DNA from: Quisquiliibacterium transsilvanicum
GTDB taxonomy: Bacteria > Pseudomonadota > Gammaproteobacteria > Burkholderiales > Burkholderiaceae_E
Direction: 5' to 3'
Length of the DNA: 64,000 nt
Assembly (NCBI RefSeq): GCF_014202215.1
Contig: NZ_JACHGB010000007.1
Coordinates: forward strand, 1-64,000
Below are positions 1 to 43,902 of the stretch, piece by piece. Both the position numbers and the translations under genes were made by a program. The notes under the pieces were generated by a model, which saw nothing but the letters and a program-made list of their open reading frames with translations, was not told where the DNA came from and did not search any database. How positions within the stretch are numbered: position 1 is the first letter of the stretch; each line of letters starts with the position of its first letter.

Positions 1-92
1 ACCACCCCTTCCCATCCCGAACAGGACCGTGAAACGCCTCTGCGCCGATGATAGTGAGCAGCTCGCTCGTGAAAGTAGGTCATCGTCAGGCA
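1..92 (+). rRNA. rrf: 5S ribosomal RNA, 3' part (window starts inside the gene)
   Basis: The first 92 bases match the 3' three quarters of a proteobacterial 5S rRNA. The conserved strings CCCATCCCGAACAGG and TGCGCCGATGATAGTG are present, and the helix that ends in GTAGGTCATCGTCAGG follows. The 5' end lies outside the window, so this is the tail of an rRNA operon transcribed to the right. The 3' end is placed where the closing acceptor-like helix should finish. Confidence 0.93.
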
Positions 93-12463: not shown

Positions 12464-13564
12464 TCAGAAGGCGTGGCGGACGCCCACGTAGAACTGCTTG
12501 GTGTCCTGGCCGGCGGTCGGAGCGTTCAGGTCCGCGCCGCTGCGGCTGTAGACGCCGTAGCTCGCGTTGCTGTCGTTGTTGATGACCGCGTAGGAGACGC
12601 CCAGCGAGGTGCGCTTGGACAGCGGGTAGTCGTAGCCCAGCGCGAACATCTTGGCGCCGGTGTCGTTGCGCTTGGAGCCGCCGACCTTCATGTCCTGCGC
12701 CTGGGTGTAGGCGAACACGAGGGTGCCGGGGCCAACCTTGGCGGTGACCGGGATCGACCAGGCGCCGCGCTTGCGGTCGCCGGTGGTGTCGTACGACAGC
12801 TCCGACTCGTCGTAGGTCAGGCCGAGGCTGACCACGCCGAAGTTGTAGGTACCGTACAGGCGCCAGGCCTGCTGGCCGGTGTTGTCACCCGCAGCGGCGT
12901 TCTTGTAGCCGTCGAACTTCTCGTCCCAGTAGGCGCCGCCGACCGTGAACGGGCCGCCGCTCCAGGCGAGGTCCAGTTCCCAGGCGTTGCCCTTGTTGCC
13001 GTCGCCCATCGCGCCGGCTTCGGCTCCGTTGGCGCCCGGCGACCAGGCTGCGCCGCCCTTGAGACCGCCCATTTTCGGCAGGTCGTAGCGCACCACGTTG
13101 CTCGAGCGCGAGGCGCGGGCGATCGGGTTGGAGTTGCTGCCGACGTAGGACAGCAGACCGGCGTTGGAGGCCTGGTGGGCGGTGGCGTAGCTCTGGAAGC
13201 TATCGATGCCCTGGTTCCAGTACAGGTCCAGCTTGCCGAGGCGGACGGTACCGAAGCCGCCGGTCAGGCCGACGAAGGTGTTGCCGCCGGCCAGCGACTG
13301 CGTGCCGCCGTTGTCCGGACGGAAGCGGTTGTCCATCTGGAAGATGGCCTTGAGCCCGCCGCCGAGGTCCTCGGTGCCCTTGATGATGAAGCGGGACGAG
13401 CCGTCGATCATCGCGGTGTGGTTGCCGTTGTTGCTGGCGCCGTTGCTGTACTTGGTCTGCGCGACGCCGGTCTTGAAGTTGCCGGTCATCACCACATTGG
13501 TCTGCGCATGCACGAGCGCCGGCACGGCGGCGGCGACGGCTGCTGCGAGAAGGGCCTTCTTCAT
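12464..13564 (-). CDS. Gram-negative general porin, OmpC/Omp32 type, copy 1
   Basis: 366 residues. An outer-membrane trimeric 16-strand beta-barrel porin of the betaproteobacterial group. Start chosen at MKKALLAAAVAAAVPALVHA, a Sec signal peptide ending in VHAQ, preceded by GGGAGA; the frame is open further upstream but that sequence is not porin-like. Typical porin segments follow: TNVVMTGNFKTG, GLKAIFQMDNRF, NTFVGLTGGFGTVRLGKL, and a terminal aromatic F (YVGVRHAF) required for BAM recognition. It lies 293 bases downstream of a close paralogue on the same strand. Confidence 0.93.
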   Translation of the reverse strand: MKKALLAAAVAAAVPALVHAQTNVVMTGNFKTGVAQTKYSNGASNNGNHTAMIDGSSRFIIKGTEDLGGGLKAIFQMDNRFRPDNGGTQSLAGGNTFVGLTGGFGTVRLGKLDLYWNQGIDSFQSYATAHQASNAGLLSYVGSNSNPIARASRSSNVVRYDLPKMGGLKGGAAWSPGANGAEAGAMGDGNKGNAWELDLAWSGGPFTVGGAYWDEKFDGYKNAAAGDNTGQQAWRLYGTYNFGVVSLGLTYDESELSYDTTGDRKRGAWSIPVTAKVGPGTLVFAYTQAQDMKVGGSKRNDTGAKMFALGYDYPLSKRTSLGVSYAVINNDSNASYGVYSRSGADLNAPTAGQDTKQFYVGVRHAF

Positions 13565-13807
13565 TACTGGGTTCTCCCTGGGTTTCGGAAATTGCTCGGC
13601 GTCCCTCGTGGGCCGCCGGAACTCCACGAGCAGATCAAGCCTGGCGCTTGGGCCTGGCGAGGGTCCGTCTCGGTGGTGCGGAGGCCATGAGACCAGCGCG
13701 CCGATGACGGTTTTGTGACGCTCGCGCGGGTGGCGATCATCCAGGGGAGATTGTTGTGCGTTGGCAACGGATCTGGAGGCAAGATGGCCGCGGGATCCTG
13801 GCGCACA

Positions 13808-13836
13808 GAAAAGAAAAAGCCGCCCGAAGGCGGCTT
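13808..13836 (-). terminator. Intrinsic terminator after porin copy 2
   Basis: Minus-strand hairpin AAGCCGCC-TTCG-GGCGGCTT (stem arms 13829-13836 and 13817-13824) followed by TTTTTCTTTTC. A stable 8-bp stem with UUCG tetraloop and U tract makes this a convincing Rho-independent terminator placed 21 bases past the porin stop. Confidence 0.9.
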
Positions 13837-13857
13837 TCTCCAACCGATGAAGCCGGT

Positions 13858-15003
13858 TTAGAAGGCGTGACGCACGCCCAGGTGCAGCTGCTTCTGGTCC
13901 TGGCCCGCGGTCGGCGAGGTCAGGTTGTTCAGGGCAGCGCCCGTGAAGTAGCCGTACGCAGCGTTCGAATCGTTGTTCAGCACGGCGTAGGAAACGCCGA
14001 CCGACGTACGCTTCGACAGCGGGTAGTCGTAGCCAACAACGTACATCTTGGCGCCGGAGTTGGAATCCTTCGAGCCGTTGTACTTGGCGTCCATCGCCTG
14101 CGAGTACGTGAACAGCAGCGTGCCGGCACCCAGCTTGGCCGTGACCGGCAGCGACCAGGCGCCGCGCTTCACGTCGCCGCCGCCAACCGAGGAGACCTCG
14201 GCTTCGTCGTACACCAGGCCGACCTTGAACATGCCGAAGTTGTAGCCGCCGAAGACACGCCAGGCTTGCGTGCCCTCGTGCGAGCCGGCGGCGAAGGTCT
14301 TGTAGCCCTCGACCTTCTCGTCGAAGTAGGCGGCGCCGACGTTCAGCGGGCCAGCGGCGTAGCCGATGTTGGCCGACCAGACCTGGCCCTTGTTGCCGTC
14401 ACCCATGCCGGCGCCTTCGCCAGCGCCCGCGCCGGCCGAAGCGCCGGTCGAGTAGGTCAGGCCACCGGAGAGGCCGCCGAAGTTCGGGCTATCCCAACGG
14501 ATGACGTTGTTCAAACGGCTGTTCCGGGCGACGGTGGCGGTGTTCGCGGTGCCGACCGTGGTCGTGCCCAGCGAGCCGTTGACGTAACCCAGGATGGACG
14601 TGTTCGAATGCTGCAGCGCGGTCGCGCGGGCACCGTGCTCGTCCAGGCCGAAGTAGTAGTAGGTGTCCAGCTTGCCGAGGCGAACCGTACCGAAGCCGCC
14701 AGCCAGGCCGACGAAGGTGTTGCCGCCGGCCAGCGACTGCGTGCCGCCGTCGTCCGGACGGAAGCGGTTGTCGACCTGGAAGATGGCCTTCAGGCCGCCG
14801 CCGAGATCCTCGGAGCCGCTGATGATGAAGCGCGAGGAACCGTCGTTCATCGCGGTGTGGTTGCCGTTGTTGGCAACGCCGTTGCTGTACTTGGTCTGGG
14901 TGATACCCGTCTTGACGTTGCCCGACAGGACCACGTTGGTCTGCGCGTAGGCAAACGCGGGCAGGGCGGCCGCGACAGCCACTGCGAGAAGCGATTTTTT
15001 CAT
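13858..15003 (-). CDS. Gram-negative general porin, OmpC/Omp32 type, copy 2
   Basis: 381 residues. Outer-membrane porin with Sec signal peptide MKKSLLAVAVAAALPAFAYA, then QTNVVLSGNVKTG, GLKAIFQVDNRF, NTFVGLAGGFGTVRLGKL and the terminal HLGVRHAF. It is clearly homologous to the neighbouring copy over its whole length, so the pair arose by tandem duplication and has since diverged in loops (for example the SAGAGAGEGAGMGDGN segment versus the shorter loop of copy 1). It has its own terminator and a candidate upstream promoter, so the two copies can be expressed separately. Confidence 0.94.
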   Translation of the reverse strand: MKKSLLAVAVAAALPAFAYAQTNVVLSGNVKTGITQTKYSNGVANNGNHTAMNDGSSRFIISGSEDLGGGLKAIFQVDNRFRPDDGGTQSLAGGNTFVGLAGGFGTVRLGKLDTYYYFGLDEHGARATALQHSNTSILGYVNGSLGTTTVGTANTATVARNSRLNNVIRWDSPNFGGLSGGLTYSTGASAGAGAGEGAGMGDGNKGQVWSANIGYAAGPLNVGAAYFDEKVEGYKTFAAGSHEGTQAWRVFGGYNFGMFKVGLVYDEAEVSSVGGGDVKRGAWSLPVTAKLGAGTLLFTYSQAMDAKYNGSKDSNSGAKMYVVGYDYPLSKRTSVGVSYAVLNNDSNAAYGYFTGAALNNLTSPTAGQDQKQLHLGVRHAF

Positions 15004-15136: not shown

Positions 15137-15279
15137 AGGCGAACGAACTGCCGAGCCCAGGTTTTTGACTGTCTTGTAGTATTGCTGCAACAATCCTTCG
15201 GTATCACCCGGAGCTGCAGGTGCCGGGAGTTCGCGTTCTTGCCGCTCCTTTTGGGGTGGTCGTCACCGAGGTCCGTGCG

Positions 15280-15927
15280 ATGAATCCTTCGATCAGCCTG
15301 AGCCCCCTTGACCGTGCGCTGTCCCTGGCCGGTCGAGCCCTTGCCACCGTGGGGTCGGCCTTGCCGGCCGACCGCCCCTCGCCCGCGCAGGAAGTTGCTG
15401 GCGAGGTCGAGCTCTCGCCGGCCGAGCGGCGCCTGTCCGGCGCACTGATGCGGGTGAACCACGTGGGCGAGGTCTGCGCGCAGGCGCTCTACGAGGGGCA
15501 GGCGCTCACGACGCGCGATCCGGTGCTGCGCGAACAGTTCCTGCACGCGGCCGCCGAAGAGAACGATCACCTGGTCTGGACCCGCGAGCGGCTCGAGGAG
15601 CTCGGCGGCCGGCCCTCGCTGCTCAACCCGCTCTGGTATGCGGGCGCGCTGGTGCTGGGTGCGCTGGCGGGTCGCGCGGGCGACCGGATCAGTCTTGGCT
15701 TCATGGCCGAGACCGAGCGGCAGGTGGAGCAGCACCTCGAGGGGCATCTGGACCGGCTTCCGGTGCAGGACGCCCGCTCGCGAGCGATCGTCGCCGTCAT
15801 GAAGGAGGACGAGGTGGCCCATGCGGATGCTGCCATCCGGCTCGGCGGCGTCGAGCTGCCCGCGCCAGTGCGCGGTCTGATGCGCGCCGCCGCGCGGGTG
15901 ATGACGAGCTCCGCGCATTACATATAG
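15280..15927 (+). CDS. coq7: 2-polyprenyl-3-methyl-6-methoxy-1,4-benzoquinone monooxygenase (Coq7)
   Basis: 215 residues. The di-iron hydroxylase that converts demethoxyubiquinol to the hydroxylated precursor in ubiquinone biosynthesis, at the membrane surface. Carboxylate-bridged iron ligands are visible in [28 protein letters not shown] and [11 protein letters not shown], which match the three ExxH-type clusters of Coq7. Start is [14 protein letters not shown]; an earlier in-frame start would add 20 unconserved residues. It is divergent from the porin and convergent with the OsmC-type gene, so it is probably a single-gene unit. Confidence 0.92.
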
Positions 15928-16013: not shown

Positions 16014-16436
16014 TCAGTCTTCGATCAGTTCCCAGCCGAGCGACAGTTCCGCGGTCTTGGCGAGCATCGCCGAGGCCGAGCAGTACTTGTCGTGCGACAG
16101 CTTGATCGCGCGCTCCACCAGGTTCGGCTTCATGCCGCGCCCGCGCACCGTGAACTGGAAGTGGATGCGGGTGAACACCTTGGGGTCGGTTGGCGCGCGC
16201 TCGGCGACCAGCCTGGCTTCGCAGCCGCGGATCTCCTGGCCGCTCTTGCGCAGAATCACCACCACGTCGTAGGCCGCGCATCCGCCGGCGCCCAGCAGCA
16301 TCATTTCCATCGGCCGTGGCGCGAGGTTGCGGCCGCCGCCTTCCGGTGCGCCGTCCATCGCCACGACATGCCCGCTGCCGGTTTCGGCCAGGAAGGTCAT
16401 GCCTTCGCCGCCGGTCCACTTCACTGTGCACTCCAC
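16014..16436 (-). CDS. OsmC/Ohr family protein (YhfA-like)
   Basis: 140 residues. A small dimeric OsmC-family protein; family members reduce organic hydroperoxides through a reactive cysteine pair. Cysteines are present in LGAGGCAAYDVV (C53) and KYCSASAML (C119), the two expected positions, and the family loop APRPMEMMLLG is intact. Starts with GTG at 16436, eight bases after AAAGGAGA, which is a strong ribosome site. Sequence resembles the YhfA subgroup more than Ohr, for which a peroxidase role is less certain. Convergent with coq7; the gap of 86 bases contains no clear terminator. Confidence 0.9.
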   Translation of the reverse strand: MECTVKWTGGEGMTFLAETGSGHVVAMDGAPEGGGRNLAPRPMEMMLLGAGGCAAYDVVVILRKSGQEIRGCEARLVAERAPTDPKVFTRIHFQFTVRGRGMKPNLVERAIKLSHDKYCSASAMLAKTAELSLGWELIED

Positions 16437-16652: not shown

Positions 16653-16681
16653 TTGCAATGCACAAATCGTTTCGGTATCAT
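16653..16681 (+). promoter_or_regulatory. Candidate sigma70 promoter for small RNA
   Basis: TTGCAA (16653-16658), a 17-base spacer, then TATCAT (16676-16681), matching four and five of six consensus bases. It predicts transcription from about 16689, just before a three-hairpin segment. Nothing coding lies directly downstream. Confidence 0.6.
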
Positions 16682-16688
16682 TCGTTCC

Positions 16689-16776
16689 ATTGGTTGTCGA
16701 TCACAACCCACCGATGTCTCCTCCACCCTCCTCCTTTGGTGGATTAAGCCCGAACCTCGTGTTCGGGCTTTTTTTT
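16689..16776 (+). ncRNA. Candidate trans-acting small RNA with anti-Shine-Dalgarno loop
   Basis: About 88 bases bounded by a sigma70-type promoter and an intrinsic terminator. Three stem-loops are visible: SL1 GGTTGT/ACAACC (16692-16708); SL2 CCACC/GGTGG (16723-16742) with a 10-base loop that reads CUCCUCCUUU; SL3 the terminator hairpin (16746-16770). A second CUCCUCC (16718-16724) precedes and partly enters SL2. Such C/U-rich loops are complementary to ribosome-binding sites and are known in several regulatory RNA families. I do not recognise the RNA as a named family. No stop-bounded reading frame fits inside it. Inferred, not proven. Confidence 0.6.
16746..16776 (+). terminator. Strong intrinsic terminator of the candidate sRNA
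   Basis: Ten-base-pair stem AAGCCCGAAC/GTTCGGGCTT with a CTCGT loop, followed by an uninterrupted run of T to 16776. It is one of the best terminators in the window and no protein-coding gene ends upstream of it, which is the main reason to propose an RNA gene here. Confidence 0.93.
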
Positions 16777-16884
16777 GGCCGGTTGGCCCATCTGCCTGGT
16801 CCATCCGGTCTGGCGGTGGTGCAGTCGAAATCCGCCGCGAGGGCCATCGCGAAGCGTGGACAGACGTTGTGAAGAAAAAGGGCT

Positions 16885-16914
16885 TTGACCGGAGCCGCGT
16901 GTCCGGGCTAGAAT
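16885..16914 (+). promoter_or_regulatory. sigma70 promoter of rplM-rpsI
   Basis: TTGACC (16885-16890), an 18-base spacer and TAGAAT (16909-16914). Transcription would begin near 16921 and give a leader of about 135 bases that is rich in GGCC-type inverted repeats (16941-16985). Leaders of ribosomal protein operons often carry autoregulatory structure; I see hairpins but cannot assign a known leader class. Confidence 0.8.
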
Positions 16915-17055: not shown

Positions 17056-17484
17056 ATGAAAACCTTTTCCGCCAAGCCGCATGAAGTCAAGCGCGACTGG
17101 TTCCTGGTCGATGCCAGCGACAAGGTGCTGGGCCGCCTCGCTGCCGAGATCGCCCTTCGCCTGCGCGGCAAGCACAAGCCCGAGTACACCCCGCACGTCG
17201 ACACCGGCGACTTCATCGTCGTGGTCAACGCCGGACGCCTGCGCGTCACGGGCAACAAGGGCACCGACAAGAAGTACTACCGCCACAGCGGCTACCCCGG
17301 CGGCATCAGCGAGACCAACTTCTCGAACATGCAGGCACGCTTCCCGGGCCGCGCGCTCGAGAAGGCCGTCAAGGGCATGCTCCCGAAGGGTCCCCTGGGC
17401 TATGCGATGATCAAGAAGCTCAAGGTGTACGGCGAGGGCTCGCATCCGCATTCCGCCCAGCAGCCGCGCACGCTCGATATCTGA
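17056..17484 (+). CDS. rplM: 50S ribosomal protein L13
   Basis: 142 residues, the normal length. L13 is an early-assembly protein of the large ribosomal subunit. The sequence starts [20 protein letters not shown] and carries the family signature around [20 protein letters not shown]. An upstream in-frame ATG-like start would add 20 residues not found in L13, so 17056 is preferred. It forms the usual rplM-rpsI pair with a 52-base gap and is driven by the TTGACC/TAGAAT promoter upstream. Confidence 0.98.
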
Positions 17485-42421: not shown

Positions 42422-42735
42422 ACTCCAGCCGGGCCCAAAGCGTCCAGACCGCCTGAATCTGCGCCTGGGGCCTGTGCTAACATTCTTGGCTCCGGCGTCG
42501 TTGCGGCGCACAACAGATTGCTCGAACAATGCCTCTGCCGCCGGCAAGCGCTTATCGAACGCGGTCCGCCGCGGTTTCCGAAGAGACGATGGCCCGCCAG
42601 CAGCATGCGCCGGTCAGCCGCTCATCGAGACACTCCCCCAGAATCCAGACCCGCGAGGCTGCGGCGTATACCGGCGTGGGCCGATAGCGCCGTGGTGCCT
42701 GCGAAACGCATCCACGACTCCGAGGGCAAACACCC
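42422..42735 (+). other. 314-bp intergenic region with sucC promoter and long leader
   Basis: No gene is recognised. An extended -10 (TGCTAACAT, 42475-42483) suggests transcription from about 42490, so sucCD would have a 5' leader of about 245 bases. Several short GC inverted repeats are present, but no known riboswitch motif was found. Confidence 0.5.
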
Positions 42736-43902
42736 ATGAAGATCCATGAGTACCAGGGCAAGGAAATCCTGAAGCGCTACGGCGTTCCGGTGCCGCGCGG
42801 GATTCCCTGCTTCACCGTCGAAGAGGCAGTCAAGGCTGCCGAGACCCTCGGCGGTCCGGTCTGGGTCGTCAAGGCGCAGATCCACGCCGGCGGCCGCGGC
42901 AAGGGCGGCGGCGTCAAGGTAACCAAGTCGCTGGACGAAGTCCGCGAATGGGCCGGCAAGATCCTCGGCATGCAGCTGATCACGCACCAGACCGGTCCCG
43001 AGGGACAGAAGGTGCGTCGCCTGCTGGTCGAAGAGGGCGCCGACATCAGCAAGGAGCTCTACCTGGGCATGGTCGTCGACCGCGTGACGCAGCGCGTCAC
43101 CGTGATGGCCTCCAGCGAGGGCGGCATGGACATCGAAGAGGTGGCCGAGCACAGCCCCGAGAAGATCCACAAGGTCGCGGTCGACCCGGTCAACGGTCTG
43201 TCCGATGCCGAGGCCGACGGGCTCTCCCGCAAGATCGGCGTGCCCGAGGGCTCGCTGCCCAAGGCGCGCGCAGTGCTGCAGGGGCTGTACAAGGCATTCT
43301 GGGAGACCGACTCCAGCCTGGCCGAGATCAACCCGCTGATCCTCACGGGTTCGGGTGACGTGATCGCCCTCGACGCCAAGATCAACTTCGACAGCAACGC
43401 GCTGTACCGCCATCCGGAGCTGGTCGAGATGCGCGACCTCGACGAGGAAGACCCCGCCGAGGTGGAGGCCAGCAAGTTCGACCTGGCCTACATCCAGCTC
43501 GACGGCAACATCGGCTGCCTGGTCAACGGCGCCGGCCTCGCGATGGCCACCATGGACACCATCAAGCTGTTCGGCGGCGAGCCGGCCAACTTCCTGGACG
43601 TGGGCGGCGGCGCCACCACCGAGAAGGTCACCGAGGCCTTCAAGATCATGCTGCGCAACCCCAACCTCAAGGCCATCCTGGTCAACATCTTCGGCGGCAT
43701 CATGCGCTGCGACGTCATCGCCGAGGGCGTGGTGGCGGCCTCCCGTGCGGTCGGCCTGAAGGTGCCGCTGGTGGTCCGGATGAAGGGCACCAACGAGGAG
43801 CTGGGCAAGAAGCTGCTTGCGGAGTCGGGGCTGCCGATCATCGCGGCGGACACGATGGCCGATGCGGCCGAGCGGGTGGTCCAGGCGGCCGCCAAGGCCT
43901 GA
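42736..43902 (+). CDS. sucC: Succinyl-CoA synthetase, beta subunit
   Basis: 388 residues, standard length. Forms the ADP/GDP-dependent enzyme that makes ATP from succinyl-CoA in the TCA cycle, giving the nucleotide-binding subunit. ATP-grasp N-terminus [50 protein letters not shown] and [17 protein letters not shown] are all present, with the [13 protein letters not shown] block near the C-terminus. Operon with sucD, 24 bases apart. Confidence 0.98.

Follow-up and report, generated by a model that had tools for sequence, protein, structure and literature searches.

The element under study lies on the plus strand between an osmC-like gene and rplM, with coq7 farther upstream, in the 64,000-nucleotide stretch of Quisquiliibacterium transsilvanicum DNA that was analyzed (the window); the Pfam domains of the neighbors were COQ7, OsmC, L13, and S9 (Table 1). 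The first-pass annotation had described a small RNA (sRNA) gene upstream of rplM with a promoter, three consecutive hairpins, and a terminator at which no protein gene ends, and each of these features was found. The promoter scan located TTGCAA (16653 to 16658) and TATCAT (16676 to 16681), separated by 17 nt, with 9 of 12 matches, and returned two promoter-like sites between positions 15500 and 18000 compared to a shuffle mean of 0.1. In 81 aligned relatives, among the matches listed, a TATAAT-like block stood at a constant distance from TTGC (columns 23 to 28). The start of the sRNA was placed 7 to 8 nt past the −10 box. RNA from 16689 to 16780 folded at −30.6 kcal/mol, compared to a shuffle mean of −19.7 (z = −4.05; none of 200 shuffles was as good), and the third hairpin (stem, 16746 to 16770) ended in a run of eight T residues (16769 to 16776). 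The terminator scan returned two terminators versus a shuffle mean of 1.9, which is not beyond chance by the scan alone. The only open reading frames listed at the sRNA overlap the terminator or read through it, and a small protein encoded by the sRNA transcript was rejected on this basis.

Table 1. Features of the sRNA locus in the window
Feature	Position	Strand	Evidence
coq7, frequent neighbor	15220..15927	+	Pfam COQ7
osmC-like gene, frequent neighbor	16014..16436	-	Pfam OsmC
Sigma-70-type promoter, TTGCAA-17-TATCAT	16653..16681	+	Promoter scan; TATAAT-like block in relatives
Candidate PhaR operator TGCAATGCACAA, overlapping the −35 box	16654..16665	+	Consensus matches
Predicted primary sRNA transcript, ~88 nt	16689..16776	+	Sequence anatomy; analogy with ncS27 (92 nt)
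5' hairpin, perhaps lost by processing	16692..16708	+	Fold; processing as suggested by the S17 and ncS27 papers
RF02278 double-hairpin sRNA, the probable stable product of processing	16715..16776	+	75.9 bits (gathering cutoff, 50), model 1-64
Site 1, CUCCUCC, anti-Shine-Dalgarno; last 3 nt within hairpin 2 stem	16718..16724	+	Fold, alignment
Hairpin 2, 10-nt loop CUCCUCCUUU (site 2, 16728-16737)	16722..16743	+	Fold, alignment
Rho-independent terminator	16746..16776	+	Terminator scan; covariation
Promoter-like site for rplM, past the sRNA terminator	16885..16914	+	Promoter scan
rplM (ribosomal protein L13)	17056..17484	+	Pfam

The two CU-rich sites were also noticed in the first pass. CUCCUCC occupies the 10-base loop of the second hairpin, as described there; a further CUCCUCC said to lie just before this hairpin is present, except that its final three bases form the 5' arm of the stem.

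The RF02278 family and its conservation

The element, whose family the first-pass annotation left unrecognized, is of a known kind. Rfam family RF02278 ("Betaproteobacteria toxic sRNA") matched over its full model well above the cutoff, and the matched segment has two hairpins, the second of which is the terminator, and two CU-rich sites. It is thus an ordinary new member of RF02278, a family in which the mechanism has already been published for relatives. No paralogue was detected in this genome at E ≤ 0.001, the segment in Table 1 being the sole RF02278 match. Two other families, the Neisseria NmsR/RcoF and Burkholderia anti-hemB sRNAs (RF02837, 33.5 bits, and RF02877, 30.5 bits), were rejected because their scores fell under the cutoffs of 49.5 and 52, and all matches to the remaining Rfam families were likewise under their cutoffs.

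A covariance search in other Burkholderiales had been proposed in the first pass, with conservation of loop and stems in relatives as the expected outcome. Of 200 Burkholderiales genomes sampled, 129 had an RF02278 match at E ≤ 0.001 and 74, including this one, had a score above the cutoff. Nine of 10 genomes of the genus, again counting this one, had a match; the tenth (G195) encodes PhaR and had no RF02278 match at 99% completeness, through either loss or an assembly gap. Three genomes (G006, G055, and G164) each had eight or nine matches, and four RF02278 RNAs are reported for Herbaspirillum seropedicae SmR1. Thirty-four sequences were chosen from the best hits of the 74 genomes and aligned; 95.7% of cells in this alignment pair, and the columns of site 1 are invariant or nearly so. 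Compensatory changes occurred chiefly in the terminator stem, where seven of nine pairs changed on both sides; covariation in hairpin 1 of the alignment says little, with four of six pairs invariant. A pattern scan of named genomes yielded at least 120 loci, which could not be used for hairpin covariation because the search pattern fixed both arms.

The gene neighborhood was conserved as well. Among the matches listed, 57 pattern-found loci had at least 2,500 nt upstream and 1,200 nt downstream, and 54 of these had rplM (within 1 kb downstream), osmC, and/or coq7 (each within 2.5 kb upstream), in any order but with the side and strand seen in the window. With a limit of 1.2 kb, osmC was present at 87 of 96 evaluable loci among the matches listed. 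Two Bordetella loci (L044 and L053) have coq7 upstream and a 27-nt core in common with the window, 24 bases of which were fixed by the search pattern. In Burkholderia aenigmatica (L046) and B. lata (L101), an sRNA copy lies between osmC and rplM; L044, L053, and L046 belong to the set with enough flank, and L101, with 759 nt upstream, lies outside it.

Two members of this group have been characterized, and the following is taken from the available parts of their descriptions. S17 of Bordetella pertussis coprecipitates with Hfq and drops in an hfq deletion; it is made as a 190-nt RNA that is trimmed to 67 nt, apparently by RNase E; and it acts by pairing at ribosome sites, its first CU-rich site mediating a repression of BP2158 that compensatory mutations restore (PMC11722255). 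ncS27 of Burkholderia cenocepacia is a processed RNA of 92 nt whose levels rise in biofilms, in stationary phase, upon starvation, and in glucose medium (PMC5688073). It is located between BCAL3348a and BCAL3349 (PMC4603805), and BCAL3348 is listed with ribosomal protein genes (PMC5688073); from the gene order at L046 and L101, we infer that BCAL3348 is rplM.

The window sRNA shares with ncS27 its sequence, double hairpin, two CU-rich sites, terminator, and primary length of about 90 nt, and it is present in one copy, versus the four reported for B. cenocepacia (PMC5688073, PMC4603805). With S17, known to us by its published description, it shares the upstream coq7, as at the Bordetella loci, and a similar promoter, the S17 −35 box being TTGCAT with a 17-nt spacer (PMC11722255). 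Sequence and gene neighborhood make orthology of the window sRNA with S17 and ncS27 very probable. By analogy, RNase E processing and Hfq dependence (PMC11722255) may extend to it, and the first-pass proposal of an Hfq-type trans-acting repressor is probably right, having already been published for these relatives. The 92 nt of ncS27, in contrast to the 190 nt of S17L, make the predicted primary length of about 88 nt plausible; as for S17S, processing may leave an RNA of about 62 nt, starting at 16715, as the abundant species. CU-rich sites are also a feature in common with the Neisseria NmsR/RcoF sRNAs and the Burkholderia anti-hemB sRNA.

A candidate PhaR operator over the −35 box

The −35 box of the sRNA promoter is overlapped by a palindrome, TGCAATGCACAA. 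PhaR was first proposed when this palindrome was seen, and the published consensus sequences were compared afterwards. The palindrome matched the Bradyrhizobium consensus TGCRNYGCASMA exactly (12 of 12 positions), the Ralstonia eutropha consensus YTKNTGCRNYGCANMAR at 15 of 17 positions, and the Herbaspirillum seropedicae consensus TGNTGCNNNGCAA at 11 of 13. According to the accessible text of the respective papers, the first derives from DNase footprints and promoter alignment (PMC6201568), the second is given for R. eutropha PhaR (PMC12849132), and PhbF/PhaR of H. seropedicae was footprinted on such a motif, TG[N]TGC[N]3GCAA (PMC3206438), and represses phaP1 and phaP2 fusions in E. coli (PMC4873508).

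The palindrome recurs at relatives of the sRNA. Among the matches listed, TTGCNNNGCA was present within 160 nt upstream of 82 of 115 evaluable pattern-found loci; when the same 115 loci were dinucleotide shuffled 100 times, it was present at 3.8 on average and at 9 at most. In these upstream regions the −35 box sits inside the palindrome. In the 81 listed sites with enough flank, the columns left free by the search were R in 79, Y in 81, C/G (S) in 75, A/C (M) in 80, and a last A in 81; the resulting consensus, TTGCRNYGCASMA, fits that of PhaR in these columns. A PhaR operator at this sRNA promoter, apparently unreported, is thus a candidate well supported by sequence.

Co-occurrence of the operator and phaR

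The distribution of the operator was compared to that of PhaR over all 109 RF02278 hits above the cutoff in 74 of the 200 sampled genomes, with the strict consensus sought within 250 nt upstream (the region of one locus, L231, was shortened by a contig end). The strict operator was present in 39 of 55 genomes with PhaR and in none of 19 without it (Fisher P = 1.9e-8, uncorrected for relatedness, as are all comparisons below). Per hit, the counts were 44 of 84 versus 0 of 25, and shuffled upstream regions bore a site in a mean of 0.03 of 84 and 0.01 of 25, respectively. Allowing the GCAACA variant gave 42 of 55 versus 0 of 19; the loose core TGCN3GCA gave a weaker contrast (45 of 55 versus 6 of 19). 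Counted by family, the operator was found in 14 of 19 families versus 0 of 6 (P = 0.0026), leaving out the PhaR-less members of the mixed families f1 and f42. Few families account for the PhaR-less genomes, whose sRNAs mostly have CCAUCC in place of CCACCC. An initial count by regular expression had located the core in 32 of 46 loci, 21 with a site; of the 14 loci not located then, eight entered the later count by coordinates, and L161 to L166, below the cutoff, were left out.

Sixteen of the 55 PhaR-bearing genomes had no operator by the strict consensus within 250 nt. Families f20 (0 of 5), f47 (0 of 2), and f5, f38, and f42 (0 of 1 each) account for PhaR-bearing families with no strict site, and f1, f4, f7, and f48 had it in part. 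Among the matches listed, 112 named loci had at least 200 nt upstream, and 77 of them bore the strict site and 84 the wider one, so that the site was absent in 35, or in 28 with GCAACA allowed. Loci lacking it, among the matches listed, were found in Cupriavidus (4 of 5), Ralstonia (3 of 3), Trinickia (2 of 2), and Burkholderia (4 of 7). Of the 50 genomes tested for PhaR, which belong to 80 named loci among the matches listed, 49 had it, one as a partial match at a contig end; L076, with an operator and no PhaR match, is the 1-in-50 counterexample. The operator present in this genome is absent at the B. aenigmatica and B. lata loci, and the published glucose response of ncS27 therefore could not be counted in favor of PhaR.

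The arrangement of the site was variable. A TANNNT sequence at −10 spacing followed only 26 of 49 strict sites; elsewhere, therefore, either the operator is placed differently relative to the promoter or the −10 box is unlike the consensus. In families f26, f31, and f50 (L283, L284, L288, L295, L301, and L302), a PhaR-type site was seen by eye just upstream of a separate TTGC, and an operator beside rather than over TTGC suggests turnover of operator position. Copies within a genome also differed: two genomes (G116 and G149) had the operator at one RF02278 copy and not at another, and in G006, G055, and G164 the strict site was observed at 2 of 8, 2 of 5, and 1 of 4 copies above the cutoff, so the copies may answer to different signals. 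By eye, a block like ATTTCGYARTGCARATTT was seen near the −35 box of seven operator-less copies (L040, L046, L074, L089, L101, L107, and L114) and in less exact form in three (L047, L085, and L091); it may be bound by a different regulator that has taken the place of PhaR.

PhaR and phasin genes

PhaR is encoded in this genome (PF07879, 108 bits, G000:C1:632538-632717). The motif TTGCRNYGCAVMA had 32 hits in the genome, compared to 9 for the reversed pattern, and these included sites at the sRNA and upstream of each phasin gene (two of two PF09361 genes). Of the 30 motif loci examined, 22 lie inside called frames, and many of the hits are therefore chance or coding; one of the 22 (L180) is a phasin upstream region under a frame taken as spurious. 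Across genomes, PF09361 was found in 18 of 22 searched, and a PhaR site in either orientation lay within 300 nt upstream of the domain in 22 of 29 phasin genes of these 18 genomes, a count that leaves out three further PF09361 matches. Three of the other genomes (G042, G191, and G136) had no phasin match in the PF09361 search, no PhaR, and no operator; the fourth (G051) had no phasin match in this search despite having PhaR and the operator.

The window has one further exact match to the PhaR consensus, TGCGGCGCACAA (42502 to 42513, plus strand), which is intergenic and upstream of a sucC-like gene (42736 to 43902, named by eye). By sequence, PhaR may touch succinyl-CoA synthetase too.

The same promoter could belong to an RF02278 sRNA in which PhaR is uninvolved and the conserved block is merely a strong −35 box or the site of another regulator. 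Since the operator overlaps the −35 box, TTGC could be retained for sigma-70; the operator is missing from some PhaR-bearing groups; and a different palindrome-like block was seen by eye near the −35 box of operator-less copies from Cupriavidus, Ralstonia, Burkholderia, and Trinickia. Yet the second half of the site, GCASMA, lies outside any −35 box and is kept nonetheless (S in 75, M in 80, and A in 81 of the 81 sites, among the matches listed), the strict site is absent from all 19 PhaR-less genomes, and both phasin genes of this genome bear the motif. We regard this explanation as unlikely and favor control of the sRNA by PhaR.

Predicted targets of the sRNA

Target prediction at ribosome sites, also proposed in the first pass, was carried out in this genome with the nine bases complementary to site 1, GGAGGAGAC, followed by ATG within 10 nt. 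It returned 23 matches (22 sites, one of them counted twice) compared to 0 for the permuted sequence GGAGGACAG; candidates were thus obtained, with this one permutation as the sole control and with AGAC being a natural purine-rich extension of the Shine-Dalgarno sequence. Five matches were set aside before annotation (two short frames, two likely internal ATGs of ligase genes, and the double count), and the remaining 18 candidate proteins were scanned by Pfam. Eleven fell into uptake, acyl-CoA, or short-chain dehydrogenase classes: five solute-binding proteins (Peripla_BP_6 twice, SBP_bac_5, TctC, and NMT1_3), two acyl-CoA dehydrogenases, an enoyl-CoA hydratase, an AMP-binding ligase, and two short-chain dehydrogenases. 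The others were a class III aminotransferase, a ketopantoate reductase, a metallo-beta-lactamase-superfamily protein, a Beta-lactamase-family (PF00144) protein, RcnB, DUF4212, and DUF169. These classes resemble the transporter and catabolic targets reported for S17 in the available text, our own counts being made without a background gene set.

Selective targets compete with the idea of a general translation inhibitor ("toxic sRNA") whose CUCCUCC sites, presumably mimics of the 16S tail, bind Shine-Dalgarno sequences in general. The name of the family refers to toxicity in E. coli (PMC4603805), which may reflect overexpression, and overexpression of ncS27 slows growth (PMC5688073); as described in the accessible text, overexpression of S17S left exponential growth of E. 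coli unimpaired, and repression of BP2158 needs extended pairing (PMC11722255). General inhibition is thus quite improbable, and repression of particular mRNAs is preferred.

Proposed mechanism

We consider it likely, with some confidence, that the window encodes an RF02278 sRNA with a PhaR-repressed promoter that is released upon polyhydroxybutyrate (PHB) formation and that brakes uptake and acyl-CoA breakdown. This reading builds on the family, anatomy, and neighborhood of the sRNA, the exact operator match, the co-occurrence with phaR, and the phasin motif; from these, we infer the transcript, PhaR binding, repression, the signal, and the targets in this organism. With little PHB, PhaR, a repressor with affinity for PHB granules, would occupy TGCAATGCACAA over the −35 box and keep the sRNA off. 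Under carbon excess, as PHB forms, the granules would titrate PhaR, and the sRNA would be made alongside the phasins. Transcription from the sigma-70 promoter would yield an RNA of about 88 nt, which processing before 16715, as suggested by S17, would convert to about 62 nt. Probably together with Hfq, its two CU-rich sites would base pair with many mRNAs at the ribosome-binding site and block translation, thereby braking solute uptake and acyl-CoA breakdown. It also seems likely that PhaR controls the RF02278 sRNA as part of its regulon in many Burkholderiales that encode PhaR, such that the PHB granule switches on an anti-Shine-Dalgarno sRNA that shuts down carbon uptake and acyl-CoA catabolism.

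A cis-acting leader or attenuator of rplM-rpsI, with the terminator controlling the ribosomal protein operon, would suit the position upstream of rplM on the same strand, seen here and at 60 of 103 evaluable loci (within 1 kb, among the matches listed), but was rejected as very improbable because rplM is not always adjoining (at 43 of the 103 listed loci, no rplM start follows within 1 kb, yet osmC or coq7 is still upstream in 35 of these 43) and has its own promoter-like site past the sRNA terminator, and S17 and ncS27, as described in the published text available, act in trans.

The PhaR-controlled sRNA proposed here has a precedent in MmgR of Sinorhizobium meliloti. In the available portions of the two accounts, MmgR is repressed by PhaR (AniA) and Hfq dependent, and its promoter contains a PhaR site that is shifted in vitro by PhaR (PMC12542648; PMC8401924). 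A PhaR site in the sRNA promoter is the likeness, predicted from sequence for the window sRNA; MmgR belongs to another RNA family, in another class of bacteria, and it is described as limiting PHB accumulation and phasin levels, whereas the function proposed here concerns carbon uptake instead.

A link between PhaR and RF02278, S17, or ncS27 was not reported in the mostly open-access literature searched, including the available parts of PMC11722255, PMC7011215, and PMC5688073; the 2019 ncS27 paper lies outside that literature. Sass et al. (2017) called the regulation of accumulation of these sRNAs "yet unknown" (PMC5688073), and a review states that the role of riboregulation in PHB synthesis by C. 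necator "remains undeciphered" (PMC8401924). A PhaR operator at the sRNA promoter joins these two questions, sRNA control and PHB riboregulation. If the mechanism is true, PHB storage in the order would have a posttranscriptional feedback arm, parallel to but separate from MmgR, and PhaR would be a candidate for the unidentified repressor that the S17 authors, in the text available, speculate acts on the S17 promoter (PMC11722255). The mechanism could also be relevant to bioplastic production, since an RNA would then restrain carbon intake just as PHB accumulates.

Other features of the window

A 5S rRNA gene at positions 1 to 91 (plus strand) is truncated by the start of the window. Two adjacent porin-like frames lie on the minus strand at 12464 to 13843 and 13858 to 15003, the second of which matched Porin_4 (Pfam).
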